This document shows positions 6,697-43,616 of a stretch of 64,000 bases of DNA, one piece after another. The stretch comes from Actinomycetes bacterium. Lineage in GTDB: Bacteria > Actinomycetota > Acidimicrobiia > Acidimicrobiales > Palsa-688. The first letter of the stretch is position 1. Each line of letters starts with the position of its first letter. The stretch spans positions 62,001 through 126,000 of the forward strand of contig JAJZMF010000026.1 of assembly GCA_021850325.1 (NCBI GenBank), written 5' to 3'. Below the pieces are notes generated by a model. It did no database searches. It was not told the DNA's origin and saw nothing but the letters and a program-made list of their open reading frames with translations. Position numbers and translations under genes: made by a program.

Positions 6697-7394
6697 GCCC
6701 CCTCCATCTTGTAGCCCAGGCCTCGGATGGTGGTGATGCGGCGCGGGTGGGCGGGGTCGTCCTCGATGCGGGCCCGCAGCCGTTTGATGTGCACGTCCAG
6801 GGTCTTGGTGTCGCCCACGTAGTGGGGCCCCCAGATGCGGTCGATCAGCGTTTCCCTGGTCAGGACACGGCCTGCATTGGCCATGAGGAGCTCGAGCAGT
6901 TCGAACTCCTTCAACGGCAGCGTCACCTCCTGGTCGCGCAGGTAGACCTCATGGCGCTCGGGGTCGAGCCTGAGATCTCCCACCTCCACGGTCTCCGCCT
7001 GCACGAGCGTCGGCTCGTTGGCGGGAGCACGTCTGAGCACCGCCCGCATGCGGGCCACCAGCTCCCTCAGCCGGTAGGGCTTGGTCACATAGTCGTCCGC
7101 CCCCACCTCGAGGCCGACCACTGTGTCTATCTCGCTGGCCTTGGCTGTGACCATGATGACCGGGGTCATCGAGCCCCCGGCCCGGATGGTGCGGCACACG
7201 TCGATGCCGGAGACCTTGGGGAGCATCAGGTCCAACAGGACGATGTCCGGGCGGACGGCCGCGAACTTGTCCAGAGCCTCGGCGCCGTCATAGGCCACCT
7301 CGACCCGGAAACCCTCGCGCTTCAACCCGACCACGAGGGCCTCGACGAAGGAAGGCTCGTCTTCGACGAGCAGCACGGTCTGCTGCTCAGCCAT
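6693..7394 (-). CDS. OmpR/PhoB-family response regulator, RegX3-like
   Basis: A 233-residue two-domain DNA-binding response regulator. The receiver domain (1-120) has the acidic pair E11/D12, phospho-acceptor D55 (VLLDLMLP), T83 and K105 (DDYVTKPY). The C-terminal winged helix (about 135-230) includes LPLKEFELLELLMANAGRV, RETLIDRIWG and the DVHIKRLRARIEDDP recognition segment. The ATG at 7394 has GGAGG 8 bases upstream and overlaps the kinase stop; a GTG nine bases earlier would use that same site and is less likely. It is co-transcribed with the kinase. The closest known type is RegX3 of the SenX3-RegX3 phosphate-sensing pair, and polyphosphate kinase lies nearby, so phosphate control is a reasonable inference. 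Confidence 0.93.
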   Translation of the reverse strand: MAEQQTVLLVEDEPSFVEALVVGLKREGFRVEVAYDGAEALDKFAAVRPDIVLLDLMLPKVSGIDVCRTIRAGGSMTPVIMVTAKASEIDTVVGLEVGADDYVTKPYRLRELVARMRAVLRRAPANEPTLVQAETVEVGDLRLDPERHEVYLRDQEVTLPLKEFELLELLMANAGRVLTRETLIDRIWGPHYVGDTKTLDVHIKRLRARIEDDPAHPRRITTIRGLGYKMEGA

Positions 7395-8469
7395 TGTCTG
7401 CACCTCCGGCGCTCAAGGGCAGGCGGATGGTGAAAGTGGAACCCTGGCCCTCTGCTGAGGTGAGCGTAACGTCGCCTCCGTGGTAGGCGGCCACGTGACG
7501 GACGATAGCCAAGCCGAGGCCGGTGCCTCCAGTCCAACGCGACCGGGCGCGGTCCACACGGTAGAAGCGCTCGAAGATGCGTTCCTGGTCCCTCTTGGGC
7601 ACCCCGATACCCTGGTCGCTCACCTCGATGCAGGCCAAGTGGTCGTGCTGTTCGGCCTTGACCGTGACCGAGCCCCCGGGTTCGGAGTACTTGATGGCGT
7701 TGTCCACCAGGTTCGCGATGGCCGACGCCAGGTCACGGCGGTTGGCTGCGACCCAGATGCCGCTCTCGACCGGGCTTATGTGCAGTGTGATGCCGCGTGC
7801 CGCCGCAGTGTCCCCGAAGCCCTCGACGGCCTCGTCCACCACGCCCGCCAGCCGTACGGGCACCAGGGTGCCCGTACCACCTGCCTCGATCCGGGAAAGG
7901 TCGAGGAGGTCGTCGACCAGGCGCGAGAAGCGGCGGGCCTCGGAGCCGAGCCGGGCCGTGAGACGCGAGACCACCTCGGGGTCGTCCTCGCCATCGAGCG
8001 TCTCGGCCAGCAGGCTGAGAGCCCCCAGCGGCGTCTTCAGCTCGTGGCTCAGGTTGGCCACGAAGTCCCGCCTGACCGCTTCCAGGCGTCTCAGCTCGGT
8101 GACGTCGTCGACAAGGGCCACAGCCCCCGTCGGCCGTGACCGCTCCCCGAGCGGGTAGGCCCGCAGGTCCAGGGTGTGCCGGGTAGGCGAGTACAGGTCG
8201 AGCACCTCGGCATGGTCCTGGCCGGAGAGCGCCCGGGCCAGGGCGGCTTCGAGGGCATTGGCGGCCAGTACGTCACCGCTGTGGGCGCTCAACAGGCGGG
8301 CGCACTGGGCGTTGCGCAGGAGCACCCGGCCCTGGTCGTCACAGACGACCACGCCCTGGTTCGTATGGTCGAGGGCCTCGGTCAGAAGAGCCAGAAGGCC
8401 CAGGGGATCCGGGGCCGCGGGCGGGGCGGCCGCACCGGAGGGTGGTACCGCGGCAGGCTCCGCGCTCAA
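7387..8469 (-). CDS. Sensor histidine kinase, SenX3/PhoR-like, without membrane segments
   Basis: Predicted 360-residue kinase. After a Pro/Ala-rich start there is a PAS-like domain (about 30-120), then a HisKA domain with His142 in LSHELKTPLGA, and a HATPase domain with the N box (NLVDNAIKYS), G1 (VSDQGIGVP), F box (ERFYRVDRARS) and G2 (GTGLGLAIV). SenX3 and PhoR normally carry N-terminal TM helices; none is seen here, so the protein should be cytoplasmic. It starts with TTG, whose TTGA overlaps the stop of the upstream phosphatase gene, and its own end overlaps the regulator start. Three genes are thus tightly coupled. Confidence 0.93.
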   Translation of the reverse strand: MSAEPAAVPPSGAAAPPAAPDPLGLLALLTEALDHTNQGVVVCDDQGRVLLRNAQCARLLSAHSGDVLAANALEAALARALSGQDHAEVLDLYSPTRHTLDLRAYPLGERSRPTGAVALVDDVTELRRLEAVRRDFVANLSHELKTPLGALSLLAETLDGEDDPEVVSRLTARLGSEARRFSRLVDDLLDLSRIEAGGTGTLVPVRLAGVVDEAVEGFGDTAAARGITLHISPVESGIWVAANRRDLASAIANLVDNAIKYSEPGGSVTVKAEQHDHLACIEVSDQGIGVPKRDQERIFERFYRVDRARSRWTGGTGLGLAIVRHVAAYHGGDVTLTSAEGQGSTFTIRLPLSAGGADNG

Positions 8470-8942
8470 ACCCGCTCCGCTCCGACCGGCGCTGTGTAGG
8501 TGGCCGAGGAGAACCTGCCTTCAGCACCGGCGAGGGCCCACACCGAGCCCTTGGCCTGCTTCGGGTTCGGCCCCAGGTCCACGTGGTCCTCATCTGCCAA
8601 GCTGACCAGGACCTCGACGATCACGTCGCCGTGGGTGCACAGTGCCACGTCCTGTCCGGCGAGCTGGCGCACGAGCTGCACGGCAGCGGAGCGTTGGCCC
8701 TCGGCCAGCGCCTCGTCCACCTCGAGGGGGATGCCCCGGTGGCTGGCCAGGGGGGCCAGCGTCTGCTGGCAGCGCAGGTAAGGGCTGCAGATGACCCTGC
8801 TCACGGTGGCCAGCCCTTCGGCCACTGCCACCAGGCTCTCCGCCTGCCTGGCGCCGTGACCGGTCAAAGGCCGCAGAAGGTCGTCCCCCGACCAGTCCTT
8901 GCGGGCCTTCGCCAGGGCGTGACGAACCAGCAACAGCGGCAC
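8466..8942 (-). CDS. SixA/MutT1-C-like histidine phosphatase
   Basis: A 158-residue histidine phosphatase (RHG fold). The GTG start at 8942 gives MPLLLVRHALAKARKDW, with catalytic His8 in the RHA motif; the second His is H104 in LCTHGDV. The block GDDLLRPLTGHGARQAESL closely resembles the C-terminal phosphatase domain of mycobacterial MutT1 and also SixA, which removes phosphate from phosphohistidine. A longer reading upstream has no plausible motif. Its stop overlaps the start of the kinase gene, so it is the first gene of a phosphatase-kinase-regulator operon. The substrate could be a phosphohistidine in the signalling pathway or a nucleotide product. The start codon is moderately sure. Confidence 0.88.
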   Translation of the reverse strand: MPLLLVRHALAKARKDWSGDDLLRPLTGHGARQAESLVAVAEGLATVSRVICSPYLRCQQTLAPLASHRGIPLEVDEALAEGQRSAAVQLVRQLAGQDVALCTHGDVIVEVLVSLADEDHVDLGPNPKQAKGSVWALAGAEGRFSSATYTAPVGAERV

Positions 8943-9111
8943 CCTGACAATCTTGGCAGAACGGAGGCCGCCGGGCGCAGGCGACAAAGGGCACGTCGGC
9001 GACCACTGAGCGTGCGGGAAGGGATGGAAAACCGAGACGTTGGCCGCACCAGGCGTCGAAGAGACCGGCGGTGACGAGCTTGACGGGCGGCCGGGCCCTA
9101 GCTTGTGGGGC

Positions 9112-10350
9112 GTGCAGGCCAAGCAGGCGGGCGGACGGGGGCGCACCCGCCAGCGCCTGCTCTTCGAGATCGGTGCGGCGGCGCTGACCCTGGGTGTGCT
9201 GGTCGTACTGTTCGTCGTTTACGACCTGTGGGGCACCGGGATAGCCGAGGGCCGCAGCCAGGTGGCCCTCGCCCGTCAGTTCGGGACCGAGCTGCACCGC
9301 TCCGAGCGCCTGCCTGCCGCCGGGGCGACAGGGGTGCCGGCGGGCGCCAGGGACGCCTCCAACCGGTCGTCCGCCCCGGCGCAGGGCCACCGGCCCGCCC
9401 CGGCCGAGGTGCAGGCGCGCCGACCCCTCACGACCGGTGGGGCGAAAGGCACTGCCCGGCCCGGCGTGCCGGGTGCCACGCGCCCTGTGGTACTGGTACC
9501 GCCCCCGGGGGGCGCGCTCGACCACCTGCTCATCCCGGCCATCGGAGTCGACCGCTACGTGGTCCAGGGGGTCGACGAGGCCGACCTGCAGATGGGCCCT
9601 GGCCATTACCCGGGGACCGCTCTGCCGGGCCAGGCCGGCAACGTGGCGATCGCCGGCCACCGCACCACCTTCGGGGCCCCCTTCTTCGACCTGAACGCCC
9701 TGAAGGCCGGGGACTTCGTCTACATCACCGACACCTCGGGGACCACGTGGGTCTACCGGGTGCAACGCCAGTGGGTGGTGGCTCCCACCGACGTGGCGGT
9801 GCTGACCCGGACAAGGACACCCGAGCTCACGCTTACGACCTGCAACCCGCGCTTCGAGGCGACCACGCGCCTGGTGGTCCGTGCCGCGCTGGCCGGTCGC
9901 ATCGCCGCCGGGGCCAAGCTTGCAAGGGGACTGGCCCTGGCCGCCGGGGCTCCGGCGGCGCCGCCCCACCACCAGGGCAAGAGCACCGCCGTGGCGGCGG
10001 TGGCCGCTCCGGCACCGCGGGTGCCCGCGGGGCAGGACGGTGGCCCCACGGCAGCCGGCGGGGTGCACGACCCGGCCGTGTCACTACCCGGGACGAGCAC
10101 ACCCGCCCCGGTGCTCGAACGTTCCACCACGCCCTCCCTGGCCCGTCCGCCTGCCGGTGCCTGGAGCTGGGTGGGGGCAGCCGGGTGGGGCCTGCTGGCG
10201 CTCATGGTGTGGACAGCAGCCCGGGTGGCGGGTGCGAGGCGCCGGCGGTGGGCCAAGCTGGGCACGGTGGGGGCGGGCGCATTGGTGGCCCTGGTCCCGG
10301 TGTGGTTCCTCTTCGAGAACCTGGTGAGGCTGCTGCCAGCGAACTTCTGA
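9112..10350 (+). CDS. Class E-like sortase with C-terminal membrane helices
   Basis: About 412 residues from the GTG at 9112 (a TTG at 9040 is an alternative). Order: basic N-terminus, TM helix (about 17-40), Ala/Pro-rich linker, sortase domain (about 140-265) and a C-terminal part with two further TM helices (about 340-405). Catalytic residues are His183 (AGHRTT), Cys244 (TLTTCNPRF) and Arg253 (TTRLVV). The TLTTCNP signature fits actinobacterial class E enzymes, which join LAxTG-type proteins to the wall. The extra membrane helices are unusual, and no sortase substrate or pilin is seen in the window. It lies between the phosphatase and Nudix genes on the opposite strand. Confidence 0.88.
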   Translation: MQAKQAGGRGRTRQRLLFEIGAAALTLGVLVVLFVVYDLWGTGIAEGRSQVALARQFGTELHRSERLPAAGATGVPAGARDASNRSSAPAQGHRPAPAEVQARRPLTTGGAKGTARPGVPGATRPVVLVPPPGGALDHLLIPAIGVDRYVVQGVDEADLQMGPGHYPGTALPGQAGNVAIAGHRTTFGAPFFDLNALKAGDFVYITDTSGTTWVYRVQRQWVVAPTDVAVLTRTRTPELTLTTCNPRFEATTRLVVRAALAGRIAAGAKLARGLALAAGAPAAPPHHQGKSTAVAAVAAPAPRVPAGQDGGPTAAGGVHDPAVSLPGTSTPAPVLERSTTPSLARPPAGAWSWVGAAGWGLLALMVWTAARVAGARRRRWAKLGTVGAGALVALVPVWFLFENLVRLLPANF

Positions 10351-30833: not shown

Positions 30834-30945
30834 CGTGCTGCCTCCAACCGTAGGCGGGCCCGCTCTCCGCCGGGCACGCACACCGGGTGCCGCACCGCGG
30901 GCCCGGCGCCCGGTCCGATGCTAGGCGCAGGTGAGGGGGCGCCCG

Positions 30946-31551
30946 TCACGAGGGTGCCCGAGGGCCTTCTGCGAGCTGGTGCATGTAGCGCCTGATGGTC
31001 TCGGGGTAGAGGCGGCGTTCGACCGCCTTTATGCGCTCGTGGAGCGAGGCCTCGGTGTCCCCGGGGAGCACCGGTACCTCCTCTTGGGCGAGGACCGGGC
31101 CGTCGTCGACGTCCTCGGTCGCGATGTGCACGGTGGTCCCGGTCACGCTCACCCCGGCCTCCAGGGCGTCACGTACGGCATGCCAGCCCTTGAAGGCGGG
31201 CAGCAGGGCCGGGTGGGTGTTGAGGACCCGGCCGGGGAAGGCGGTGAAGAGGGACGGGCCGAGGACGGTGCCGAACCCGGCCATGGCCACCACGGTGATG
31301 CCCCGGGCCTGCAGGGCCCCCACCAGCCGGTCGGTGTAGGCGTCCCTGTCGAAGGCCTCGCCGAAGCTCCCCCGCGCCACCAGCTCGGTAGGTACGCCGC
31401 CCGCCTCGGCCACCTGGAGGGCCCGGCACGGGCGGTCAGCCAGTACGGCGCGCACCTCCAGCCCCGAAGCCAGGAGAGCCTCCAGGACGGTGCCACTGCC
31501 CGAGACCAGGGCGCCCAGGTTCACCGGCCGGCGCCCACGTTCGGTGGTCAT
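30946..31551 (-). CDS. purN: Phosphoribosylglycinamide formyltransferase
   Basis: Transfers formyl from 10-formyl-THF to GAR in purine synthesis. 201 residues from the ATG at 31551; a longer frame through the upstream gene is not real. Motifs: VSGSGTVLEALL at the N-terminus, VMAGFGTVLGPSLF, the catalytic NTHPALLPAFKG (Asn, His) and TVHIATEDVDDGPVLAQ with the catalytic Asp. The usual neighbour purH is absent. A 112-base gap separates it from folD, so folD may also have its own promoter. Divergent from the DedA gene. Confidence 0.95.
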   Translation of the reverse strand: MTTERGRRPVNLGALVSGSGTVLEALLASGLEVRAVLADRPCRALQVAEAGGVPTELVARGSFGEAFDRDAYTDRLVGALQARGITVVAMAGFGTVLGPSLFTAFPGRVLNTHPALLPAFKGWHAVRDALEAGVSVTGTTVHIATEDVDDGPVLAQEEVPVLPGDTEASLHERIKAVERRLYPETIRRYMHQLAEGPRAPS

Positions 31552-31582
31552 CCAGCGAACATAGTGCGGGTAAGGTGGGCCA

Positions 31583-31618
31583 ATGAGCCGCCCGGTCTCG
31601 TCCCGTCCCCAGCCTTGA
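31583..31618 (+). CDS. Possible short upstream frame coupled to the DedA gene
   Basis: ATG at 31583 opens an 11-codon frame, MSRPVSSRPQP, whose TGA overlaps a TTG in the DedA frame (TTGA at 31615-31618). A TAAGGT lies just upstream, so the frame could be read from a nearly leaderless message. Its existence is a guess from layout; chance is possible in such short spans. Confidence 0.3.
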   Translation: MSRPVSSRPQP

Positions 31619-32313
31619 GCCTTTCCCCCCAGCTCCCGGGCATATTCCACGCCCTGGGGCCCACGATCCAGAACTACGGGTACCTGGCGGTGGGGAGCCT
31701 CGTGCTGCTGGAGGACTTCGGTGTGCCCGTGCCGGGTGAGACCGTCCTCATCGCGGCAGCCGTGTACGCCGGAGCGGGACGGCTGAACGTGGTCGCCGTG
31801 GCGGCCCTGGCCTTCGTGGCCGCGGTGGTGGGCGACAACATCGGCTACCTCATAGGGCGGCTGGGCGGCAGGGCCCTGGTCGCCCGTTTCGGCCGCTACG
31901 TGCTGCTGACGCCCGAGCGCTTCGACCGGGCCGAGCACTTCTTCCGCCGCCACGGGGGCAAGGTCGTCACGGTGGCGAGGTTCATCGACATCCTGCGCCA
32001 GGCCAACGGCATCATCGCCGGGATAACCGAGATGCCGTGGGCCTCACGTTTCCTGCCCTTCAACGCTCTGGGAGCCGCGCTCTGGGTGTCGCTGTGGACG
32101 GCAGTGGGCTACACCGCCGGCTCCAACATCAATGCCGTCTACAACGACATCGTCCGGTACGAGCTCTACTTCGCCGGGCTGGCGGCGGTGGTGGTGCTGG
32201 TCCTGGTGGGCCGTCACCTGATGGCCCGTCGTCGTAACCCGGGCACTACGGGCTCGGCACAAGGCGCTGTAGCCGAGGGGGAAGGGGAGCCGCAGGGCGT
32301 CCGCAGTTCCTAG
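31615..32313 (+). CDS. DedA-family membrane protein
   Basis: About 232 residues from the TTG at 31615; a GTG at 31564 in the same frame would leave only 12 bases to the divergent purN start. DedA features: an N-terminal re-entrant segment with the acidic LLEDFGVPVPGET motif, several TM helices, VVGDNIGYLIGRLGG, ERFDRAEHFFRRHGGKVVTVARFI with the conserved Arg, and IIAGITEMPWASRFLPFNALGAALW. The family flips undecaprenyl phosphate or related lipids across the membrane, so a wall or envelope lipid carrier role is likely. A polar Gly/Glu tail follows the last helix. Confidence 0.9.
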   Translation: MSLSPQLPGIFHALGPTIQNYGYLAVGSLVLLEDFGVPVPGETVLIAAAVYAGAGRLNVVAVAALAFVAAVVGDNIGYLIGRLGGRALVARFGRYVLLTPERFDRAEHFFRRHGGKVVTVARFIDILRQANGIIAGITEMPWASRFLPFNALGAALWVSLWTAVGYTAGSNINAVYNDIVRYELYFAGLAAVVVLVLVGRHLMARRRNPGTTGSAQGAVAEGEGEPQGVRSS

Positions 32314-32387
32314 CCCTCTCCCCGCCGGCCGGGGCAGCCCGGGCAGGCTCACCCAAGGTGGCGGTTTCGCCGTTTGCACGCCTGGGG

Positions 32388-32462
32388 CCCTCCACCTGTC
32401 CCAGCGGCCGGAGCGGCCGATCTGTCCTGTTGGCAACAGGCACGGGAGGCAGAGGGGACGAC
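32388..32462 (+). promoter_or_regulatory. Structured mRNA leader before the EAL-HDOD gene
   Basis: Two perfect small hairpins, CGGCCG-gag-CGGCCG (32405-32419) and CCTGTT-ggc-AACAGG (32426-32440), lie between CCCTCC (32388-32393) and the purine-rich GGGAGGCAGAGGGG ribosome site (32444-32457). CCTCC can pair with GGAGG, or CCCTC with GAGGG, which would hide the ribosome site. A regulatory role is only a suggestion. Confidence 0.35.
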
Positions 32463-33665
32463 ATGCCCAAGTTCATGGTGGCTCGCCAGCCGGTCTTCGA
32501 CTCCCGGCTCCGGGTGGTCGGCTACGAGCTGCTCTTCCGTGGCTCCGACGGGGGTGTGACCGGGGACGCCATGACCGCCGACGTCCTGGTCCGGGCCTGC
32601 CTCGACCTGGGCCTGGGCTCCCTCGTGGGGGACAAGTTGGCCTTCTTGAACACCACTCGTACCTACCTGGTCGGCGGGCAGGAGATCCCGTTCCCGCCCC
32701 GGCAGACCGTGCTCGACATCGTCGAGGAGGTGACAGCCGACGCCGAGGTGGTCGCCGGGTGCCGCAGGCTCGTCCAGAACGGCTACACGCTCGCCGCTGA
32801 CGGCCGCTCACAGGGAGCCGGTGACCCGCTCCTGGAGGTCGTGTCGATCATCAAGCTCGACGTCAGTGCGCTCAGCCCGGCCGAGCTGCGCTCGAGCGCC
32901 CTGCAGTGCTCGGCCTACGGGGCACGGCTGGTGGCCAAACGGGTCGAGAGCCGTGACCAGCTCGAGGCCTGTCAGGCCCTCGGCTTCGACCTGTTCCAGG
33001 GCTACCTGCTCTCGCACCCCGAGCTGGTGGAAGGGCGCGCCATAGCACCAGGCCGGTTGACATGCCTACGGGTCCTCGAGCGGCTGTGCGACCCGATGGT
33101 CTCGGCCGCCGAGGTCGAGGACATCGTGAAGAGCGATGCCGCCCTCAGCTACCGCTTCCTGCGCATGGCTGGGGAGGGTGCCGCCCGTGGGCTGTCACGG
33201 CGCGTCGGCTCGGTGCGCGAGGGCGTGGTCCTGGTGGGCCTGCGCCGGCTTCGGGCCTGGGTGTCCCTGATGCTGCTCTCGGAGGACGCGCACGACGGTT
33301 CGGACGAGCAGTTGGTGATGGCGATGACCAGGGCCAGGATGTCGGAGCTGTTGGCCGAGCGCACGTGCCCGCGCCAAGCGGAGGAGGCCTTCACCGCCGG
33401 CCTTGTCTCGGCCCTCGACCTCCTGCTGGGCGTGCCCATCGAAGAGGTGCTCGGGGAGCTGTCCCTGACCGCGGAGCTAACCGACGCCGTCCTCAGCGGC
33501 ACGGGCCGCCTGGGTGCCATCGTGGCGGATTCGGTGGCCTGGGAACTGGGCCGGGCCGATGTCAGTTGCGGGCTGCCCGACCACGCAGTGGACGAGTGCT
33601 ACCGGGAGGCTCTCGGCTGGGCACGGGACCTCTTTGACGCCGTCAGCCAGAGCGCTGCCGGCTGA
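32463..33665 (+). CDS. EAL-HDOD (YuxH-type) signalling protein
   Basis: A 400-residue protein. The N-terminal EAL-like domain (1-200: MVARQPVFDSRLRVVGYELLFRG, VEEVT, IKLDVSALSPAELRS, GFDLFQGYLLSHPE) keeps the fold, but the EAL signature reads ELL and several metal ligands of active c-di-GMP phosphodiesterases are not evident. The C-terminal HDOD domain (about 205-390) contains the VEDIVKSDAALSYRFLRMA helix typical of the family. This architecture generally acts as a scaffold in signalling. ATG with GAGGGGA upstream. No GGDEF gene is nearby. Confidence 0.93.
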   Translation: MPKFMVARQPVFDSRLRVVGYELLFRGSDGGVTGDAMTADVLVRACLDLGLGSLVGDKLAFLNTTRTYLVGGQEIPFPPRQTVLDIVEEVTADAEVVAGCRRLVQNGYTLAADGRSQGAGDPLLEVVSIIKLDVSALSPAELRSSALQCSAYGARLVAKRVESRDQLEACQALGFDLFQGYLLSHPELVEGRAIAPGRLTCLRVLERLCDPMVSAAEVEDIVKSDAALSYRFLRMAGEGAARGLSRRVGSVREGVVLVGLRRLRAWVSLMLLSEDAHDGSDEQLVMAMTRARMSELLAERTCPRQAEEAFTAGLVSALDLLLGVPIEEVLGELSLTAELTDAVLSGTGRLGAIVADSVAWELGRADVSCGLPDHAVDECYREALGWARDLFDAVSQSAAG

Positions 33666-34373: not shown

Positions 34374-35086
<713 letters not shown>

Positions 35087-35090
<4 letters not shown>

Positions 35091-36010
35091 GGGAGGGCAC
35101 CCGGCCCGTCGGGACCGGCCTGGCCCGGCGCGGCGTCGGGGCCGGCCTGGCCCCGGCGTTTGCGTTGCCGCAGCCCCTGGCCCGTCGAGCCCAGGTAGGC
35201 CTCGACGACCGCCGGGTCACGCTGCACCTCCGCCGGTGTGCCGGCGGCGATCACCCGACCGAAGTTCAGGACCACGATGCGTTGTGCAACGGACATGACC
35301 AGTCCCATGTCGTGCTCTATGAGAAGGACGCTCACGCCCATCTCGTCGCTGGTCCTCTGGATCAGGCGGGCCAGGGCCTGCTTCTCCGAGGGGTTGGTGC
35401 CCGCCGCCGGCTCGTCGAGCAGGAGCAGCTCCGGGTTGGTCCCGAGCGCCCGGGCGATCTCGAGCCTCCGTCTGTCCCCGTAGGGCAGCGAGCTGGCTAT
35501 GTCGTTGCTCCGGGCCTTGAGGCCCACGAAGTCGAGCAGCTCGAGCACCCTGGCGTCGCTTTCGCGCTCCTCGCGTCGGGTCCGGGGTAGGCGGAGCATG
35601 GCACCGATGGGCCCGGTGTGCTGGCGGGACTCCACCCCCACCTTCACGTTCTCGAAGGTGGTCAGGGCGTTGAAGAGGCGGCTGGTCTGGAAGGTCCGGG
35701 CGATGCCGGCATGGTTCAGCTGGTGAGGCTTGCGGCCGACCACGGCGACGGTCGCCCCGTTCCCGCGGCGGAAGCTGATCGAGCCCTCCTGGGGCTTGTA
35801 CACGCCGGTCAGGCAGTTGAAGAGCGAGGTCTTGCCGGCGCCGTTGGGCCCGATCACCGAGAGGATCTCGTTGCGGCGCTGGTCCAGGCTCACGCCGGCC
35901 AGGCTGGTGACCCCTCCGAAGCGGAGCGTGACGTCACGGACCTCGATGATCCGGTCGACGTCTCCCGGCACCTCACCCGAGACGCTCTGGGTCGGAGCGG
36001 CCACGCTCAC
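35087..36010 (-). CDS. livG: Branched-chain amino acid ABC transporter ATPase LivG
   Basis: A 307-residue LivG-type ATPase. Walker A GPNGAGKTS, LivG-typical switch region RTFQTSRLFNALTTFENVKVG, the relaxed signature SSLPYGDRRRLEIARAL, Walker B LLLLDEPAAG and IEHDMGLVM. The C-terminus is longer than usual, a Pro/Gly-rich extension of about 40 residues. GTG start overlapping the livM stop (GTGA), so translation is coupled. Partner of LivF in the same transporter. Confidence 0.95.
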
Positions 36011-37410
36011 TGGATCTCCGCTGTGGTCGTGGTCATGGCGTCAGCGGTGCCCACGCCGTGCTCCGCCAGGCCGATCTCGCGCTTGCGCCGCTTGGAGGGC
36101 AGGATGCCCTCGGGGCGGAAGATCATCATGACTATCAGCAGTGCCCCCAGGTAGATGTAGAGGTCCTGCTGCTGGAAGCCGAACAGGGGGTGCAGGCGCA
36201 GGAACTCCGGGAACCACTGGAGGACCGCGGCGCCCACGACCGCTCCCGGCAGTGACCCCATGCCCCCGAAGATGACCAGCACCAGGATGAGGATGGAGAG
36301 GTAGTAGGTGAAGTCCTGGGGCTCGATGTAGCCGACCTGGCTGGCCGTCAGGACCCCGGCGAAGCCCGATGTGGAGGCGCCGATGGCGAAGGCCATCACC
36401 TTGTACTTGAGGACGTTGACCCCGCTCGCCTCGGCGGCCACCTCGTCCTCCCGGACCGCCGTCCAGGCCCGGCCCACCCGGGACTCCTCCAGGGAGTGGA
36501 AGAGCACGAGTATGAGCACGACAAAGGCGAGCAGGAGGTAGTAGTAGGGCAGGTTGCCCAGCCCCCAGGTGTAGTGGACGCCCAGCAGGTTCACCGAGAA
36601 GTGGGGGATGCCGAGCACACCGCCGGAGCCGCCCGTGATGCTGGTCAGGTTCTGGGCCACGATGGAGACGATCTCGCCGAAGCCGAGGGTGACGATGGCC
36701 AGGTAGTCGCCCCGGAGGCGCAGGGTAGGCACGCCGAGCAGGACGCCGGCCATCATGGCGGCCAGGATGGCGAGAGGGATGGTCCAGAAGGGGTTGAGGT
36801 GGAAGGGCAGGTGCACGGGCATGGCACCGGTCCAGAAGGCCGCCGAGTAGGCGCCGATGGCGTAGAAGGCCACGTAGCCCAGGTCCAGCAGCCCGGCATA
36901 GCCGACCACCACGTTGAGGCCCACGGTGAGCAGTACGTAGACGCCTATCTGCTGCACTGCCACCTGTTGCCAGAAGCCGGAGACGTGCATCGGGTAGATG
37001 ATGGCGAACACCAGCAGGGCCAGGTAGAAGCCGTAGCGCACCCGCTTGTCCGGCATCAGGCGACGGGGGAGGGCCAGGACGGAGTCGTTCCAGGCCCTGA
37101 TCCTCGCCTGGTACCTGTGCCGCGCCGTCGTGGCACCCCAGAAGACGACGGCGAGGCCGATGAACCAGAAGACCCGCGGGTTGAACAGGGAGCCGGTGAA
37201 ACCCGAGGTCGGAGCGCTCGAGCTCCCCGACGGCCCTGTCATGACCGCCAACACGAGGAAGCCCACCAGGTAGGCGAACGCCCTGCGGGCATCGACGCTG
37301 GACACCAGGCGCGCCCAGGCCGTCGGCCTCTCGTCCCAGGTGACGGCGGGCTGGGCCCCGGCCTCGGGGCCTGCGGGCGGCCGGGCCGCGGGTGTGCCGG
37401 GTGCGGTCAT
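36007..37410 (-). CDS. livM: Branched-chain amino acid ABC transporter permease LivM
   Basis: A 467-residue permease. After a Pro-rich cytoplasmic head and extra N-terminal helices (about 40-75 and 80-100) comes the LivM core of roughly 8 helices with VGYAGLLDLGYVAFYAIGAYSAA, GDYLAIVTLGFGEIV, RAWTAVREDEVAAEASGVNVLKYK (the EAA-type loop to the ATPases) and GGMGSLPGAVVGAAVL. It is longer than typical LivM (about 425) because of the N-terminal helices. ATG start overlaps the livH stop (ATGA). Confidence 0.94.
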   Translation of the reverse strand: MTAPGTPAARPPAGPEAGAQPAVTWDERPTAWARLVSSVDARRAFAYLVGFLVLAVMTGPSGSSSAPTSGFTGSLFNPRVFWFIGLAVVFWGATTARHRYQARIRAWNDSVLALPRRLMPDKRVRYGFYLALLVFAIIYPMHVSGFWQQVAVQQIGVYVLLTVGLNVVVGYAGLLDLGYVAFYAIGAYSAAFWTGAMPVHLPFHLNPFWTIPLAILAAMMAGVLLGVPTLRLRGDYLAIVTLGFGEIVSIVAQNLTSITGGSGGVLGIPHFSVNLLGVHYTWGLGNLPYYYLLLAFVVLILVLFHSLEESRVGRAWTAVREDEVAAEASGVNVLKYKVMAFAIGASTSGFAGVLTASQVGYIEPQDFTYYLSILILVLVIFGGMGSLPGAVVGAAVLQWFPEFLRLHPLFGFQQQDLYIYLGALLIVMMIFRPEGILPSKRRKREIGLAEHGVGTADAMTTTTAEIQ

Positions 37411-38339
37411 GCCGAACGTCCCAGTCGTTCACCGAGCAGGCCCATGGGCCGGAACAGCAGGACGACGATCAGGATCCCGAAGGCGATGACGTCCTGCCAG
37501 TTGAAGTTGACGCAGCTCAGGGGCAGGCTCTCCGCCACACCGAGCACCAGGCCCCCGAGCATGGCCCCCCGCAGGTTGCCTATGCCGCCCAGCACGGCGG
37601 CGGTGAAGGCTTTGAGGGCGGGTGTGAAGCCCATCGTGTAGACGACACCGAAGTTGAGCGCGTAGAGGAACCCGGCCGCGCCGCCCAGCAGTCCACCGAG
37701 CACGAAGGCCTGGGAGATCACCCGGTCGATGTTCACGCCCATGAGGCTCGCCGTCTCGGCGTCCTCGGCCACCGCCCGGATCCCCTGGCCTAGCTTGGTC
37801 TTGGCCACCACGCGGTCGAGCGAGACCAGCAGGACTATGGCGGCGGCGGCCCAGATCAGGTACATCGTCTGCACCTGGGCGCCGAGGAACGTGAAAGCTA
37901 TCCCGCTGTTGGTCCCGTTGAATATGTACGGCACGCTCAGAGAGGTGCGCCCGAACTCCTTGCCGGCCAGGTTGAAGAGGAAGTACGACGCGCCGATGGC
38001 GCTTATCAGGAACGCGAGCTTGGGTGCCTTACGCCTGCGCAGCGGCCGGTAGGCCACCCGCTCCAGCAGGAAAGCTATCAAGCCTCCGCCGCAAGCCCCG
38101 GCGACGATACCGAGCACGATCATGAGCACTGACATCAAGCCGTGCGGTTGTCTGCCCACAACTGCCTGGAGGACGAAATAGCCGGCGAAGCCCCCGCTCA
38201 TGAAGACCTCGCTGTGGGCGAAGTTGATGAGCTGGAGAACCCCGTAGACCAGGGTGTACCCGAGGGCGATGAGGGCGTAGAGGAAGCCGTTCGCCAGCCC
38301 GTTGACCAGGTACTGCATGAAGTTCTCGGTGAAGCACAT
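37407..38339 (-). CDS. livH: Branched-chain amino acid ABC transporter permease LivH
   Basis: About 310 residues from the ATG at 38339, which has GGGAG 8 bases upstream; an in-frame start 30 bases earlier is less likely. LivH features: LVNGLANGFLYALIALGYTLVYGVLQLINFAHSEVFMSG, RAVAEDAETASLMGVNIDRV (loop to the ATPases) and GGIGNLRGAMLGGLVLG. About eight TM helices. It follows the binding-protein gene after a terminator-like hairpin, so its expression is probably lower than that of the binding protein. Confidence 0.95.
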   Translation of the reverse strand: MCFTENFMQYLVNGLANGFLYALIALGYTLVYGVLQLINFAHSEVFMSGGFAGYFVLQAVVGRQPHGLMSVLMIVLGIVAGACGGGLIAFLLERVAYRPLRRRKAPKLAFLISAIGASYFLFNLAGKEFGRTSLSVPYIFNGTNSGIAFTFLGAQVQTMYLIWAAAAIVLLVSLDRVVAKTKLGQGIRAVAEDAETASLMGVNIDRVISQAFVLGGLLGGAAGFLYALNFGVVYTMGFTPALKAFTAAVLGGIGNLRGAMLGGLVLGVAESLPLSCVNFNWQDVIAFGILIVVLLFRPMGLLGERLGRSA

Positions 38340-38372
38340 CGCGTGTCTCCCGGGATGTGGGCCGCCCAAAGA

Positions 38373-38407
38373 GGCCCGGGCACCCGCATTGGGCGGGTAC
38401 CCGGGCC
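38373..38407 (-). terminator. Terminator-like hairpin between the binding-protein gene and livH
   Basis: A 15-bp stem (38373-38387 with 38393-38407) with one G-U wobble and a 5-base loop. In the minus direction it is followed by TCTTT. It would give partial termination, leaving more message for the binding protein. Confidence 0.65.
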
Positions 38408-38460
38408 TGTTTCATGTCCAGAGCATAGTTACCCCGGTCCGGAGCCCGAGGTTGCGGTGC

Positions 38461-39657
38461 TCAGGGGGCGAGGCCGAGCTCGACGATCTTGCCGTTGACC
38501 ACGTGGTAGATGTAGACGGCCGTCCCGGCGATGTTGCCGTTGGCCTGGAACTTCACGACTTTGGTGAGGCCCTTGTAGGTCACGTGGTGCAGGGCGTTCA
38601 CGATATTGGCCCGGCTGATGCCCTTGACGCCCAGCTTCTTCATGACCGAGATAATGACGTTGGTGGCGTCGTAGGACTCGGCCGAGTAGGTGCCGACCGG
38701 GAAGTGCGCCAGAGCGCGGAACTGCTTTGCGAACGGTGCCGCAGCAGCGTTCTTCGACAGGTCGGCGCAGGCGCAGCTGATATAGGTGCCGTTGGCCACC
38801 TTTGCGCCGGCTTCGCTCACGTAGTGGGGGTCCAGGCTCCCGTCGTCCGACATGAGGATGCCCTTGTAACCGGCGGAGCGCAGTGACTTGGCCAGCAGGG
38901 CGAAGTCGCAGTAGTAGCCCGCATAGAAGGTGACCGGTGCGTGGCTGGAGATGATGCTGGTGGCGACGGCACTGTACTGCTGCACGTTGCCGGTACCCGC
39001 CTGGCACTGGGTGGTGCCGAGGGCCGTGGCATGGGTGACCGAGGCGCCCAGCTTCTTGGCTGCAGCGTCGAAGGCGGTGGCCAGGCCCTGCGCGTAGGCA
39101 CTCCCGTCGTCGATGCTGTAGATCTTCTTCGCCTTGAGCTGCTTGACGGCGAAGGTGGCGTCGGCCGGGCCCTGGGCATTGTCGTCGGCCACGACGCGGA
39201 AGAAGTTCTTCCACCCGTGCTGAGCCAGCTCGGGGGCGGTGGCGGACGGGCTCACGGTGGCGAGCTTGGCCTGGGCGTACAGGGGCTCGGCCGCCTTGGT
39301 GGCACCCGAGAAGGCGGGGCCGACCAGGGCCATGACCGATGAGTTGCCGATGACCTGCTGGGCGGCGGTCGGTGACTGGGTGGCCGAGCCCTGGTCGTCA
39401 GCTGCCAGGAAGGCGAGCTTGAAGGGGAGGTGGCCGAAGGTCGTACCTGCGTTGGCCTGGTTGATCGCCAGCTGGACTGCGAACTTCATGTTCAGGCCGA
39501 GCTGGGCGTTGCCACCTGACAGGGGCCCTTCGTAGGCGATGGTGTATGTCGGTTCGCTGCTGGCCGACGCCGCTGTGACCGTTGCGCTCAGCGACAGCGC
39601 CGAGACTGCGGCTGCGAGCGCCGCCCCAGCGAACTTGCTCAGCAATTTTGTGTGCAT
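38461..39657 (-). CDS. livK: Branched-chain amino acid-binding protein (LivK-like)
   Basis: A 398-residue substrate-binding protein from the ATG at 39657 (GAGGAGA site upstream). A Sec signal (KLLSKFAGAALAAAVSALSLSATVTAASA) ends in an AxA cleavage site; no lipobox Cys is present. The mature part has YTIAYEGPLSGGNAQLG, INQANAG, FLAADDQGSA, VMALVGPAFSGAT, a SDDGSLDPHYV strand and AESYDATNVIISVMKKLG, the type I periplasmic-binding fold. Five or more Cys in the mature protein may form disulfides. It is first in the liv cluster. Absence of a lipid anchor is odd for a monoderm. Confidence 0.93.
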   Translation of the reverse strand: MHTKLLSKFAGAALAAAVSALSLSATVTAASASSEPTYTIAYEGPLSGGNAQLGLNMKFAVQLAINQANAGTTFGHLPFKLAFLAADDQGSATQSPTAAQQVIGNSSVMALVGPAFSGATKAAEPLYAQAKLATVSPSATAPELAQHGWKNFFRVVADDNAQGPADATFAVKQLKAKKIYSIDDGSAYAQGLATAFDAAAKKLGASVTHATALGTTQCQAGTGNVQQYSAVATSIISSHAPVTFYAGYYCDFALLAKSLRSAGYKGILMSDDGSLDPHYVSEAGAKVANGTYISCACADLSKNAAAAPFAKQFRALAHFPVGTYSAESYDATNVIISVMKKLGVKGISRANIVNALHHVTYKGLTKVVKFQANGNIAGTAVYIYHVVNGKIVELGLAP

Positions 39658-39964
39658 TGGGTCTCCTCTCGTGCACTCCAGCCGCTCGGCGCACCTGGCG
39701 CCGACCACTGGTGCAGGAGCGTGGTGGGCTGATGGACGGCAGTCCCCACGCCGGCGGTCCTTGCCGTAGGCTGGTGGAGGGGCGGACTACCTGTGTCTGC
39801 TTGAAGCATTGTCGGGGCAGTATAGATGGGCCGTGTTGCGGGCACGTTGCGCGCCGGGAGAGGTCTGCCCGGATGCCCGCGGGCACCACCAGTCCGGTTG
39901 ACCAGCGCGCTGAGCGCGGTGCACCTGGGGACGGCGCTCCCCTCCGTTCCAGCCCCCGGCCTGG
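39658..39964 (-). promoter_or_regulatory. Upstream region of the liv cluster
   Basis: Noncoding stretch of 307 bases. The best promoter element is TATACT on the minus strand at 39824-39819, about 160 bases before the binding-protein start; no convincing -35 is seen. A GGCGC-acctg-GCGCC inverted repeat lies in the leader (39690-39704). The ribosome site GAGGAGA is next to the start. No small gene was found. Confidence 0.4.
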
Positions 39965-42154
39965 TCAGCCCCCGGCCTGGGTGCCCCCGGGGCGTTTTGG
40001 GGTCGGGACGGCATGCCCGGCGCCCGTCCCTGCCCCGCCCCGGAGCACGAAGGGGTCGATCCGCAGTTGCTCGCTCACCGGGGTGGCCGGCGCCTGGTCC
40101 CCGTCGTAGAAGTGGAGGACCCGTAAGCGGTACCAGATGGCCATGGTGTCCAGGAGCGAACGGTAGACGGAGCGCCAGGAGACGGTGCTCGTGAACTGGT
40201 GGCGCAGGCGTATGGGGGCCTCCAGGAAGCGCCGGTAGCCCAGCCGGCGGGCGATCACGAACAGCTCGAGGTCGAAGGCGAAGCGCTTCTCAACCATGCG
40301 GGGCAGGACGGCGGAGAGCACGTCACGGCGGACGAGCTTGATCCCGGTCTGGGTGTCCCTGATGTTCAGCCGGAACCCCAGCCGCACCAGCTGCTGGTAG
40401 CCCCAGGAGTAGACCCGGCGCAGCAAGGGGTACTCGACCTCGGACAGCGGGTGCCTCTTGCTCCCGAGGATTATGTCGGGGTGATAGAGGTCCACCATGG
40501 TCTGGAACGACGTGAGCAGGACCGGGTCGAGGTCGCCGTCGGCGTCGATGAACCCCAGGTAGCGGCCCCGCCCACGGGCCAGGCCGATGCGCAACGCCGC
40601 TCCCTTGCCCTGGTTGCGGGCGAAGACCAGGTTCGTCAGGTGGGGGTCGCCGGCCAACGCAGTGTCCAGTTCGACGTCGCTCCCGTCCGTCGAGCCGTCC
40701 GATACGGCTATCACCTCGTAGGCCACCCCCGTGCCGCCCAGCACCTCCAGGAGCCGGCGCATGGTCGGTACCAGCAGTTGGCCCGGGTTGTAGTACGGCA
40801 CGACGACCGTGAGGTCGAGGTCGGCGTCGAGGAGGGCCAGGTTGGCTGCCTCGACCAGGGGCCGGCGGTCACCCTCGGCATGGCCGAGGGTGACCACGAG
40901 CATCACGGCGCACACTGTCGAGACGGACACGACCATCACAATGGCGACCTCGGTCATCGACCGGTGCCAGAGAGCGGTCCCCACGACGGTCATTGCCAGG
41001 CCGGGCCAGCACAAGGCGGCCGTGAGCCGTCCGCCCCGGTTGAGGTGGTAGTGCAGGAGCACCGTGACCAGGCCGAGCATGGCACCGGCGAAGCTCAGGA
41101 GCCCGACGACGCTTGCCGCCCCCTCGTAGGGCTTGCCGAAGAGCGCATCTACGGTCGGGCGGGCCAGGAGGCTCACCACGACGGCCGCCACCGAGCCGGT
41201 GACGGCGACGGCTGCCGAGCCCAGGGCGAACATGAGCCGTTGGTTGGGCCTGCTGTCCGGCCCGACCAGGCGCGGGACCTCGCTGCCGACGAGCCGGGGG
41301 AAGGCCAGAGCGGCCACGGCCCCCGGCGCGACCAGGGCCAACTGGGCGACCGTGGCGGCGGCAGCGTACCGGCCCGAGACCTCGGCACCCAGCCAGTGAC
41401 GCCCGAGGACCACGTCGGCGGCGGCCAGGGCCCAGTAGCCGGTGAAGGCAATGGCCGGGGCCCGCACGCCCTGCCAGCTCAGGTGGGCGGAACGCGAAGA
41501 CCCGGGGCCCTGTGCGGCCGGGGCCCCGGGCCGCTCCGCCCCCAGGGGGGCGCCGGCCAGCTGTCGTAGGCCCACCATCACGATGGCGGCGGTCACCACC
41601 TCGCCCCAGACCATGGCCAGGAAGGCACCCTCGGTGCCCCCACCCCGCCGCACGAGCACGACACCGGCGACTATGCGTACCGCCGTTCCGGCCAGCAGCC
41701 CGGTGGCCAGCACGGGGAGCTTGCCCCGGGCGACCAGCACGCCCTTGGGCACCACGCTGAGGCCGACCGGGAGGGCGTACGCCCCCAGGAGCAGGGCGCT
41801 GGTCAAAGTGGGCAGGTGCAGGAAGCCCTTGACGAGCGGCGACAGGGCCAGGAGCAGGGCGCAGGCCCCGGCGCCCAGGGCGCTGGCATCGACCAGCAGC
41901 GCTCCCACGGCCAGTGGGGCGTCACCCACCCGGTCCCCTACCGCAACCTGGAGGGCGTTGGCGGGCACGTCGAAGAGCAGGGCCAGGCCGGCCAGGGCGG
42001 CGAGCCCTCCGAACACGCCGGGCGAGGAGGAGCGGGCTACCAGGACCAGGAAGAGGAAGCTCCCCAGGTTGACGGCCAGGGTGAGCGCGGCCACCACCCA
42101 GCGCCGGCGGTCCCGGGCTGCCCTCGGTCCAGGCTGGTTGGTGTTGTCCGACAT
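39965..42154 (-). CDS. Flippase-glycosyltransferase fusion protein
   Basis: A 729-residue protein from the ATG at 42154. Residues 1 to about 435 form a polysaccharide flippase-like (MATE/MOP) membrane domain with roughly 12 helices: AALTLAVNLGSFLFLVLVARSSSPGVFGGLAALAGL, ALPVGLSVVPKGVLVARGK, GRYAAAATVAQLALVAPGAVAALAFPRLV. From about 447 a GT2 domain starts (DLTVVVPYYNPG), with VSDGSTDGS, GKGAALRIGLARGRGRYLGFIDADGDLDP (the DXD-type site) and KRHPLSEVEYPLLRRVYSWGYQQLVR, RDTQTGIKLVRRDV, like dolichol-phosphate mannosyltransferase relatives. The frame runs unbroken through the junction. It could couple lipid-linked glycan transfer and export. Confidence 0.85.
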   Translation of the reverse strand: MSDNTNQPGPRAARDRRRWVVAALTLAVNLGSFLFLVLVARSSSPGVFGGLAALAGLALLFDVPANALQVAVGDRVGDAPLAVGALLVDASALGAGACALLLALSPLVKGFLHLPTLTSALLLGAYALPVGLSVVPKGVLVARGKLPVLATGLLAGTAVRIVAGVVLVRRGGGTEGAFLAMVWGEVVTAAIVMVGLRQLAGAPLGAERPGAPAAQGPGSSRSAHLSWQGVRAPAIAFTGYWALAAADVVLGRHWLGAEVSGRYAAAATVAQLALVAPGAVAALAFPRLVGSEVPRLVGPDSRPNQRLMFALGSAAVAVTGSVAAVVVSLLARPTVDALFGKPYEGAASVVGLLSFAGAMLGLVTVLLHYHLNRGGRLTAALCWPGLAMTVVGTALWHRSMTEVAIVMVVSVSTVCAVMLVVTLGHAEGDRRPLVEAANLALLDADLDLTVVVPYYNPGQLLVPTMRRLLEVLGGTGVAYEVIAVSDGSTDGSDVELDTALAGDPHLTNLVFARNQGKGAALRIGLARGRGRYLGFIDADGDLDPVLLTSFQTMVDLYHPDIILGSKRHPLSEVEYPLLRRVYSWGYQQLVRLGFRLNIRDTQTGIKLVRRDVLSAVLPRMVEKRFAFDLELFVIARRLGYRRFLEAPIRLRHQFTSTVSWRSVYRSLLDTMAIWYRLRVLHFYDGDQAPATPVSEQLRIDPFVLRGGAGTGAGHAVPTPKRPGGTQAGG

Positions 42155-42257
42155 CACTGCCCCCGGGCGTCGGGCGAGGGAACGGCTCCCGGCCGGCCTG
42201 TGCCCATATCGGCCTGTTCGGGCCCAGGCTCCAGTCCGCAACGGTACCGTGCAGCCA

Positions 42258-43616
42258 ATGGGACGACGCGCAGGCACCGACCAGCACACGGCCGACTGGC
42301 CCTCTCGACCGGGGGGCGGCACCTGGGGCCCCCCGCCCACCAGGGACGAAGAGGGGGAGCTGCTCGTGCCGGTGGACGTGGGCCGTGTGAGGGCAGCCGT
42401 CCGCTTCGACGTTGCCACCAGGGAGGCGGAGGTGAGCGCCACCATGTCGTTCACCTCGGGCGACCGGGAGGGCAGGCCGGTGTTCGACCTCCGCCAGGAC
42501 GTCGACGAGGCCTTCTTCGACGGCCGCCCCCTGCCACCGGAGGCCCTCAGGTACCGCTCGACCGGCGCCGGCGACGAGGCCCGCGTGAGGGCCGTCGACC
42601 TTGTCTGTGACCCCGGGAGCCGCCATGAGCTCGTCCTTCGCTACCGGCTGGGGTTGCCCCAGGCCACCGGGGCCGTGCCCGTCGCCTGGGCGCCGTCCGG
42701 GGACGGCGTCACCTTTGACCTGTGGATGTCAGACCTCGAGCCGGGCCGCTACCTGGAGATGTGGTTCCCGGCCAACCTCTGCCACGACGAGCTCGCCTTG
42801 GAGCTCGACATCGAGGTGAACGGCTCGGACCGGCCGCACACCGTCCTGGCCAACGGGGCGGTCAGGCAGAGCGCGCCAGGTCGTACCTTCGAGGTCCGCT
42901 ACCCGCCGTCGTACACCTCTTTATCTCCCATGCTCGTCCTGGCCCCCTCGGACGAGGTGGTCACGGCCCAGGGGGACGCGACGTGCGCCGGCCGCCCCCT
43001 GAGGGTGGGGGTGGCAGCCCTGCGCGGGGCGGGGGCCGATGTCGCCGGTGCTCTGGCTGACACGCAGGCCTGGCTCGGCTACTTCGGCAACCGCTACGGC
43101 CCCTGGGCGCACGGCGACCGGTTCACGGCGGTGCTCTGGGCCCCGGGGCGGGGTATGGAGTACGACGGCGCGACCACCTCGAGCCCCGAGGCGCTCGAGC
43201 ACGAGATCTTCCACAGCTGGTTCGGTCGTGGCGTCAAACCGGCGAGCGCCGGTGACGGGTGGATGGACGAGGCCATGGCCACCTGGGCCACCGCCTCCCG
43301 GAGAGCCGGGGCTGGCCGCTTCGGCTCGGAGGAGCTGGGCCTCGACCAGGCGCCTGTGGAGCTGAGGCCCCCCCACCCCTGGTCGAGGCACACGCCCCGC
43401 GAGGCCTACGGGGACGGTGCCCGCCTGTTGGCGGGGGTGGCCCACATGGCCGGTGGCCCCGACCGGTTGCGCAACGCGCTCGCCGCCTGGCACCGGGCCT
43501 ATGCCGGCAGGCACGCCTCGACCAGCGACCTGTGCCGGCACCTCAGCCAGTGGTGCGGACAGGACCTCGGGCCGTGGTGGCGGCGCTACGTGGACGGCCT
43601 GGCGGAGCCGGCCTGA
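42258..43616 (+). CDS. M1-family-like metallopeptidase
   Basis: A 452-residue gluzincin. The zinc site is complete: HEIFH (His315, Glu316, His319) followed after 18 residues by Glu338 in WMDEAMATW; the exopeptidase-type GMEY segment (residues near 295) stands where M1 enzymes have GAMEN. The N-terminal beta-sheet domain (RVRAAVRFDVATREAEVSATMSF) is also M1-like. It lacks the large C-terminal helical domain of full M1 aminopeptidases. ATG at 42258, just after a possible GTG at 42249. Divergent from the flippase fusion. Immediately upstream of the ribosomal promoter, where rpsJ would normally be. Confidence 0.88.
   Translation: MGRRAGTDQHTADWPSRPGGGTWGPPPTRDEEGELLVPVDVGRVRAAVRFDVATREAEVSATMSFTSGDREGRPVFDLRQDVDEAFFDGRPLPPEALRYRSTGAGDEARVRAVDLVCDPGSRHELVLRYRLGLPQATGAVPVAWAPSGDGVTFDLWMSDLEPGRYLEMWFPANLCHDELALELDIEVNGSDRPHTVLANGAVRQSAPGRTFEVRYPPSYTSLSPMLVLAPSDEVVTAQGDATCAGRPLRVGVAALRGAGADVAGALADTQAWLGYFGNRYGPWAHGDRFTAVLWAPGRGMEYDGATTSSPEALEHEIFHSWFGRGVKPASAGDGWMDEAMATWATASRRAGAGRFGSEELGLDQAPVELRPPHPWSRHTPREAYGDGARLLAGVAHMAGGPDRLRNALAAWHRAYAGRHASTSDLCRHLSQWCGQDLGPWWRRYVDGLAEPA

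Follow-up and report, generated by a model that had tools for sequence, protein, structure and literature searches.

In Streptococcus pyogenes, GacI is a C55-P-GlcNAc synthase, GacK is of the Wzx type and GacL is a GT-C enzyme (PMC10821137, PMC8035078). The protein described here, encoded in a 64,000-nucleotide stretch of actinobacterial DNA (the window), probably pairs a GT-A polyprenyl-P-sugar synthase with a Wzx-type flippase, as does the GacI-GacJ-GacK-GacL system, which then makes use of a GT-C enzyme. However, in Gac the flippase is a different protein from the synthase and its small membrane partner GacJ, whereas the window protein contains the GT-A synthase fold and the flippase fold of such a multi-component transmembrane glycosylation system in one chain; a possible counterpart of the GT-C part is a GT-C-like protein found beside or within the fusions of relatives. 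The GtrA-GtrB/CsbB pairs and GtrA-GT2 (PF04138-PF00535) fusions likewise bring together a polyprenyl-P-sugar synthase and a putative flippase, sometimes in one chain and in the same N-to-C order, but GtrA is a small protein of 3-4 helices whereas the window flippase is a 12-helix MOP transporter.

Each half also has close relatives that lack the other. DPMS, ALG5, GtrB and ArnC share with the window GT2 domain the GT-A fold, the DxD motif and the acceptor-phosphate site, and the RDTQTG motif of the window protein resembles ALG5. These enzymes, however, have no transmembrane part or only a few C-terminal helices, and to our knowledge none of them carries a MOP flippase. The WzxE/PST flippases (PF13440, PF01943) adopt the same 12-helix fold as the window protein (Z 33), but WzxE has no glycosyltransferase domain. 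The components are known; we found no description, in the open-licence literature, of the flippase-glycosyltransferase (MOP-GT2) joint or of the four-part frame discussed below.

A single frame and its two halves

The features of the gene are as follows.

39965..42154, minus strand: flippase-GT2 fusion (P0001), a single ORF of 729 aa, ATG at 42154 and stop at 39965
40871..42127, minus strand: MOP/PST flippase domain, residues 10-428, 12 TM helices (from the model, the fold match and PF13440 in homologues)
40820..40870, minus strand: linker, residues 429-445 (17 residues), with a short helix at 431-442 and no start codon (from the model and the sequence)
40097..40819, minus strand: GT2 domain (GT-A fold) of the polyprenyl-phosphate glycosyltransferase type, residues 446-686 (from PF00535 and the fold)
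40538..40546, minus strand: DxD metal/donor motif D537-A538-D539, aligned to the DAD of DPMS
40406..40459, minus strand: putative acceptor-phosphate site K566, R579, S583, corresponding by alignment to PfDPMS R117, R131, S135
39968..40096, minus strand: C-terminal tail, residues 687-729, mostly of low confidence in the model

The frame of 729 codons proposed in an earlier, sequence-only reading, which gave no strand, is real and runs on the minus strand from the ATG at 42154 to the stop at 39965, with no internal stop; the plus-strand reading of 39965-42154 contains two stops, has no comparable protein and was rejected. Third-position GC amounts to 0.88-0.97 per 60-codon block and is unbroken across the junction. 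Codons 421-451, in the junction region, include no ATG, GTG or TTG, so that the GT half has no separate initiation there and the C-terminal part is translated together with the N-terminal part. In the structure model, which was built from a 56-row alignment (mean pLDDT 86.9, pTM 0.72), the TM helices extend to about residue 428 and the GT-A fold follows from about 446, in agreement with the junction near residue 440 that had been read from the sequence, and the stretch 40790-40850, where a sequencing error had been suspected, is exactly the domain junction. In two same-genus genomes (L033/L034; L035/L045), the assembly is interrupted near residue 215 of the fusion, within a GC-rich loop connecting helices 6 and 7.

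The solved structure closest to the flippase part is WzxE (9g9p; Z 33.0 over 384 residues, rmsd 3.0), with further matches to a MATE protein (Z 30.0) and MurJ (Z 28.6); the 12 TM helices in a MOP fold bear out the MOP-type domain of about 12 helices in the initial reading. Within the window protein, Pfam detects only Glycos_transf_2 and no flippase family, and the flippase assignment therefore rests on the fold and on homologues. The fused homologues P0006, P0014, P0015, P0017 and P0019 score above the cut-off of the PST profile (PF13440/PF01943), with PF13440 (Polysacc_synt_3) matching the N-terminal part (P0017, 4e-18; P0006, 1.6e-14; P0014, 4.7e-14). Inside the helices, Q69 and D247 are invariant, and R41 nearly invariant, across fused and separate flippases. 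The N-terminal half is, judging from the model, probably a Wzx-type MOP flippase and a predicted mover of lipid-linked sugars.

The C-terminal half matches PF00535 (Glycos_transf_2) at residues 449-615 (8.1e-20; 71.9 bits against a cut-off of 23.3), and its fold matches PfDPMS with product (5mm1, Z 25.5), ArnC (9bhe, Z 24.4) and GtrB (9nyd, Z 23.6), as well as RmlT, TarP and WrtF. Among 13 fusions, D539 of the DxD motif is invariant and D537 nearly so, whereas K566, R579 and S583 are all invariant. In DPMS, R117, R131 and S135 hold the lipid phosphate (PMC5526996). Compared with PfDPMS, R579 and S583 are identical to R131 and S135, but K566 is a conservative change for R117 and, as such, a counterpoint to the synthase reading. 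After the GT-A fold, no C-terminal TM anchor of the GtrB or type III DPMS kind is predicted, only a helix at 660-679, and because C-terminal TM helices of its own are absent, the GT2 half is not placed in that subgroup. The Pfam match, the GT-A fold with its DxD motif and the similarity to DPMS vindicate the dolichol-phosphate-mannose-synthase-like domain of the sequence-only reading, and the GT half, by its motifs and modelled fold, is probably of the polyprenyl-P-sugar synthase type.

Fused, separate and longer relatives

Full-length fusions in genomes of the same family have identities of 44-75%. In an even draw of 397 genomes from the order, about 19 (~5%, in nine family codes) have one match across both halves, one of those counted (G769) having a stop inside the match, and in a sample of the phylum a fusion match is present in 3 of 396 genomes; the remaining strong matches in these samples are mostly standalone GT2 genes. 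A scan of named genomes with domain HMMs recovered the fusion in Hamadaea tsunoensis DSM 44101, Dactylosporangium vinaceum (complete chromosome) and Kitasatospora phosalacinea, and in several metagenome genomes, whereas a plasmid search found no full-length match to it. The fusion, initially called unusual, is indeed uncommon in the order, but it is recurrent and present in other actinobacterial groups. In other families, three ORFs with a standalone GT2 domain, long enough to resemble fusions, were rejected as such: in L016 the GT frame extends upstream and the real flippase gene there is in another frame, L021 is a GtrA-GT2 protein, and L030 has no flippase-profile match.

Elsewhere, the flippase and the GT2 are encoded by adjacent genes on the same strand, flippase first (L047, L048, L155, L162, L166). 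In L047 and L048, GT4, flippase and GT2 genes follow one another, the flippase and GT2 genes overlapping by 4 bp, and in L166 the order is flippase, GT2, GT4. Such adjacency commonly marks a functional link, which a fusion then makes permanent. Of the outcome that the sequence-only reading had named as its refutation, separate genes in relatives and a junction due to assembly error, the first part holds and the second does not.

In the window, the fusion gene stands alone between liv and ribosomal genes.

42216..43616, plus strand: M1-peptidase-like divergent neighbour, start codon uncertain, part of the rplC-peptidase-fusion synteny
34374..39708, minus strand: branched-chain amino-acid ABC transporter (liv) genes, flanking the fusion gene opposite the peptidase, context

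G001, G002 and G022 share the gene order rplC - M1-like peptidase - fusion - liv, which in G001 and G002 is spread over two contigs; the ribosomal side of this order is also present in G018 and G028. In G004 and G026, the syntenic site holds an unfused 318-aa GT; G004 has, in addition, a fused paralogue at another site. In a GT2 tree of 74 rows (a quick tree with SH-aLRT support only), the unfused syntenic copies group inside the clade with the fused ones, and the fused state must change 8 times, with 5 or more of these changes forced by well-supported branches; the flippase half was therefore acquired, lost or both on several occasions, the tree being blind to direction. Standalone GT2 orthologues in two families of the order (L041:6280-9601, L042:1323-4335) adjoin hrcA-/dnaJ-like genes, an odd site for a glycan gene.

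The fusion itself is extended in some relatives. A GT4 gene of one family, to which the GT4 of L166 also belongs, directly follows it in L067, L071, L102, L117, L203 and others, and in L069 and L072 the GT4 forms the C-terminus of a flippase-GT2-GT4 chain. Of these last two, one lies on a contig labelled Acidobacteria, and its flippase-GT2-GT4 protein shares 63% identity with the actinobacterial one, either through gene transfer or because of mis-binning. In two loci, a flippase-GT4 fusion lies divergently beside the flippase-GT2 fusion (L032:4703-7438 minus, L101:2566-5199 minus). The longest chain is a stop-free frame of 2,173 aa (L196, G502:C210, 1179-7700 minus) with PF13440 at 58-347, PF00535 at 452-618, GT4 at 724-1024 and then about 1,100 residues with many TM helices; together with L195:3-5636 (5' end open) and L197:827-6619, it makes up a set of single frames of 1,877-2,173 aa that combine flippase, GT2 and GT4. 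GT-C-like profile matches fall inside the frame in L196 and L195, and in a separate downstream frame in L197.

The C-terminal ~1,100 residues of L196 are homologous to large membrane proteins beside other fusions (L102:9688-13509; L113:1-3642 and 6746-10324; L117:8853-13544; L205:8268-11001), which are ~1,000-1,250 aa long, with a long non-membrane C-terminal part and an invariant G-D-x-x-P after the first helix. Searches of Pfam, NCBIfam and PDB sequences gave no match for these proteins, which, we infer, may be GT-C enzymes. A parallel development is seen in the same order, where GtrA (PF04138) is fused N-terminally to GT2 (L019, L020, L021, L022, L026): two different flippase folds in the same position, attached to related GT2s, suggest that the joining of synthase to flippase is itself what is selected.

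Searches of the window genome, with positive controls, gave no close copy of this module's GT4 or of the GT-C-like protein, so the fusion may feed a PMT_2 protein there; the genome encodes three such proteins elsewhere, and that one of them receives the fusion product is a conjecture. The fusion is the only match in this genome to the flippase-group profile A7, which was used because PF13440 misses the fusion itself; a PF13440 search of the genome accordingly gave no match. About 8 kb from the fusion, the window also encodes a VTT/DedA-type domain protein (30931-32313), with an EAL + HDOD protein (32358-33665) beside it; some DedA proteins recycle polyprenyl phosphate.

Probable synthesis and flipping in one chain, and the alternatives

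The fusion, its two folds and intact catalytic motifs, its recurrence and the adjacency of the separate genes are established, and the reading that we favour on balance, with confidence somewhat above even, is that one chain makes a polyprenyl-P-sugar at the inner leaflet and then flips either this product or a short glycan assembled on it. The cytosolic GT2 domain would load polyprenyl phosphate with a sugar taken from a nucleotide-sugar, with the 12-helix MOP domain anchoring the enzyme at the membrane; the even number of helices places both termini on the same side, which is the cytosol if the N-terminus is inside, as expected for MOP flippases. What the MOP domain would deliver to the outer leaflet is the polyprenyl-P-sugar, or a short glycan extended from it by the GT4 enzyme, and there the flipped product would serve a GT-C-type enzyme as donor. 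Within this scheme, the acceptor lipid, the substrate that is flipped, the coupling and the final acceptor are our inferences. The coupling of glycan-lipid synthesis to export, already raised in the sequence-only reading, is well supported by context, that is, by adjacent genes, recurrent fusion and the GtrA-GT2 parallels, and remains predicted. Counterpoints are that the window genome yields no close copy of the GT4 or of the GT-C-like protein and has the fusion gene isolated from such partners, that Pfam sees no flippase in the window protein, and that Wzx-type transport of polyprenyl monophosphate sugars is only proposed, even for GacK.

The same architecture could belong to a classical Wzx pathway, in which the GT2 would add a later sugar to a polyprenyl-PP oligosaccharide, rather than synthesize a polyprenyl-P monosaccharide, and the MOP domain would flip the finished repeat unit. 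Wzx flippases normally carry polyprenyl-PP glycans, the fusion often has a GT4 gene directly after it, and GT2 folds are versatile, as the matches to RmlT, TarP and WrtF illustrate; but the top fold and profile matches are polyprenyl-phosphate synthases, the equivalents of DPMS R131 and S135 are kept and invariant, and the same order has GT2 domains joined to GtrA, the usual flippase for polyprenyl-P-sugars. We regard this pathway as unlikely, though it retains appreciable weight. Much less probable is a flippase half that transports nothing and merely anchors or scaffolds the GT. The divergence of the window flippase domain past Pfam detection, a GT domain devoid of TM anchors of its own and same-site orthologues that, in some cases, do without the flippase half all fit such a role, for which, however, one helix would be enough, whereas all 12 are retained in a WzxE-like fold at high confidence, with intrahelical residues conserved across fused and separate flippases.

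An artefact, whether through assembly or frameshift error or through separate translation of two products, is scarcely credible, even though the relatives are mostly metagenome assemblies and G001 and G002 break within the flippase part. Those breaks are contig ends near residue 215, away from the junction, and the same fusion is present in about 19 genomes and one complete chromosome. The suspected error at 40790-40850 was checked and rejected: independently assembled relatives, including the complete D. vinaceum chromosome (L117), read through the same junction, the GC by codon position is even across it, and it offers no start codon.

Beyond the favoured reading of synthesis and flipping by one chain, the window protein may represent one stage of a progression towards a complete transmembrane glycosylation pathway on a single actinobacterial polypeptide of up to 2,173 residues, with the polyprenyl-P-sugar synthase, elongation by GT4, the MOP flippase and GT-C transfer combined and substrate channelled from synthase to flippase. 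We hold this view tentatively and below even confidence. If true, it would assign to a MOP protein the translocation of sugars linked to polyprenyl monophosphate, which for actinobacteria is so far no more than a hypothesis. The actinobacterial polyprenyl-P-mannose flippase, in particular, is still hypothesised (PMC12757957), and the natural joining of a polyprenyl-P-sugar synthase to a MOP flippase in one chain points to a candidate flippase type. The fusion is a ready-made construct for assaying synthesis and flipping together, and with the 2,173-aa relative an assembly line for membrane glycans could be tested within one protein.
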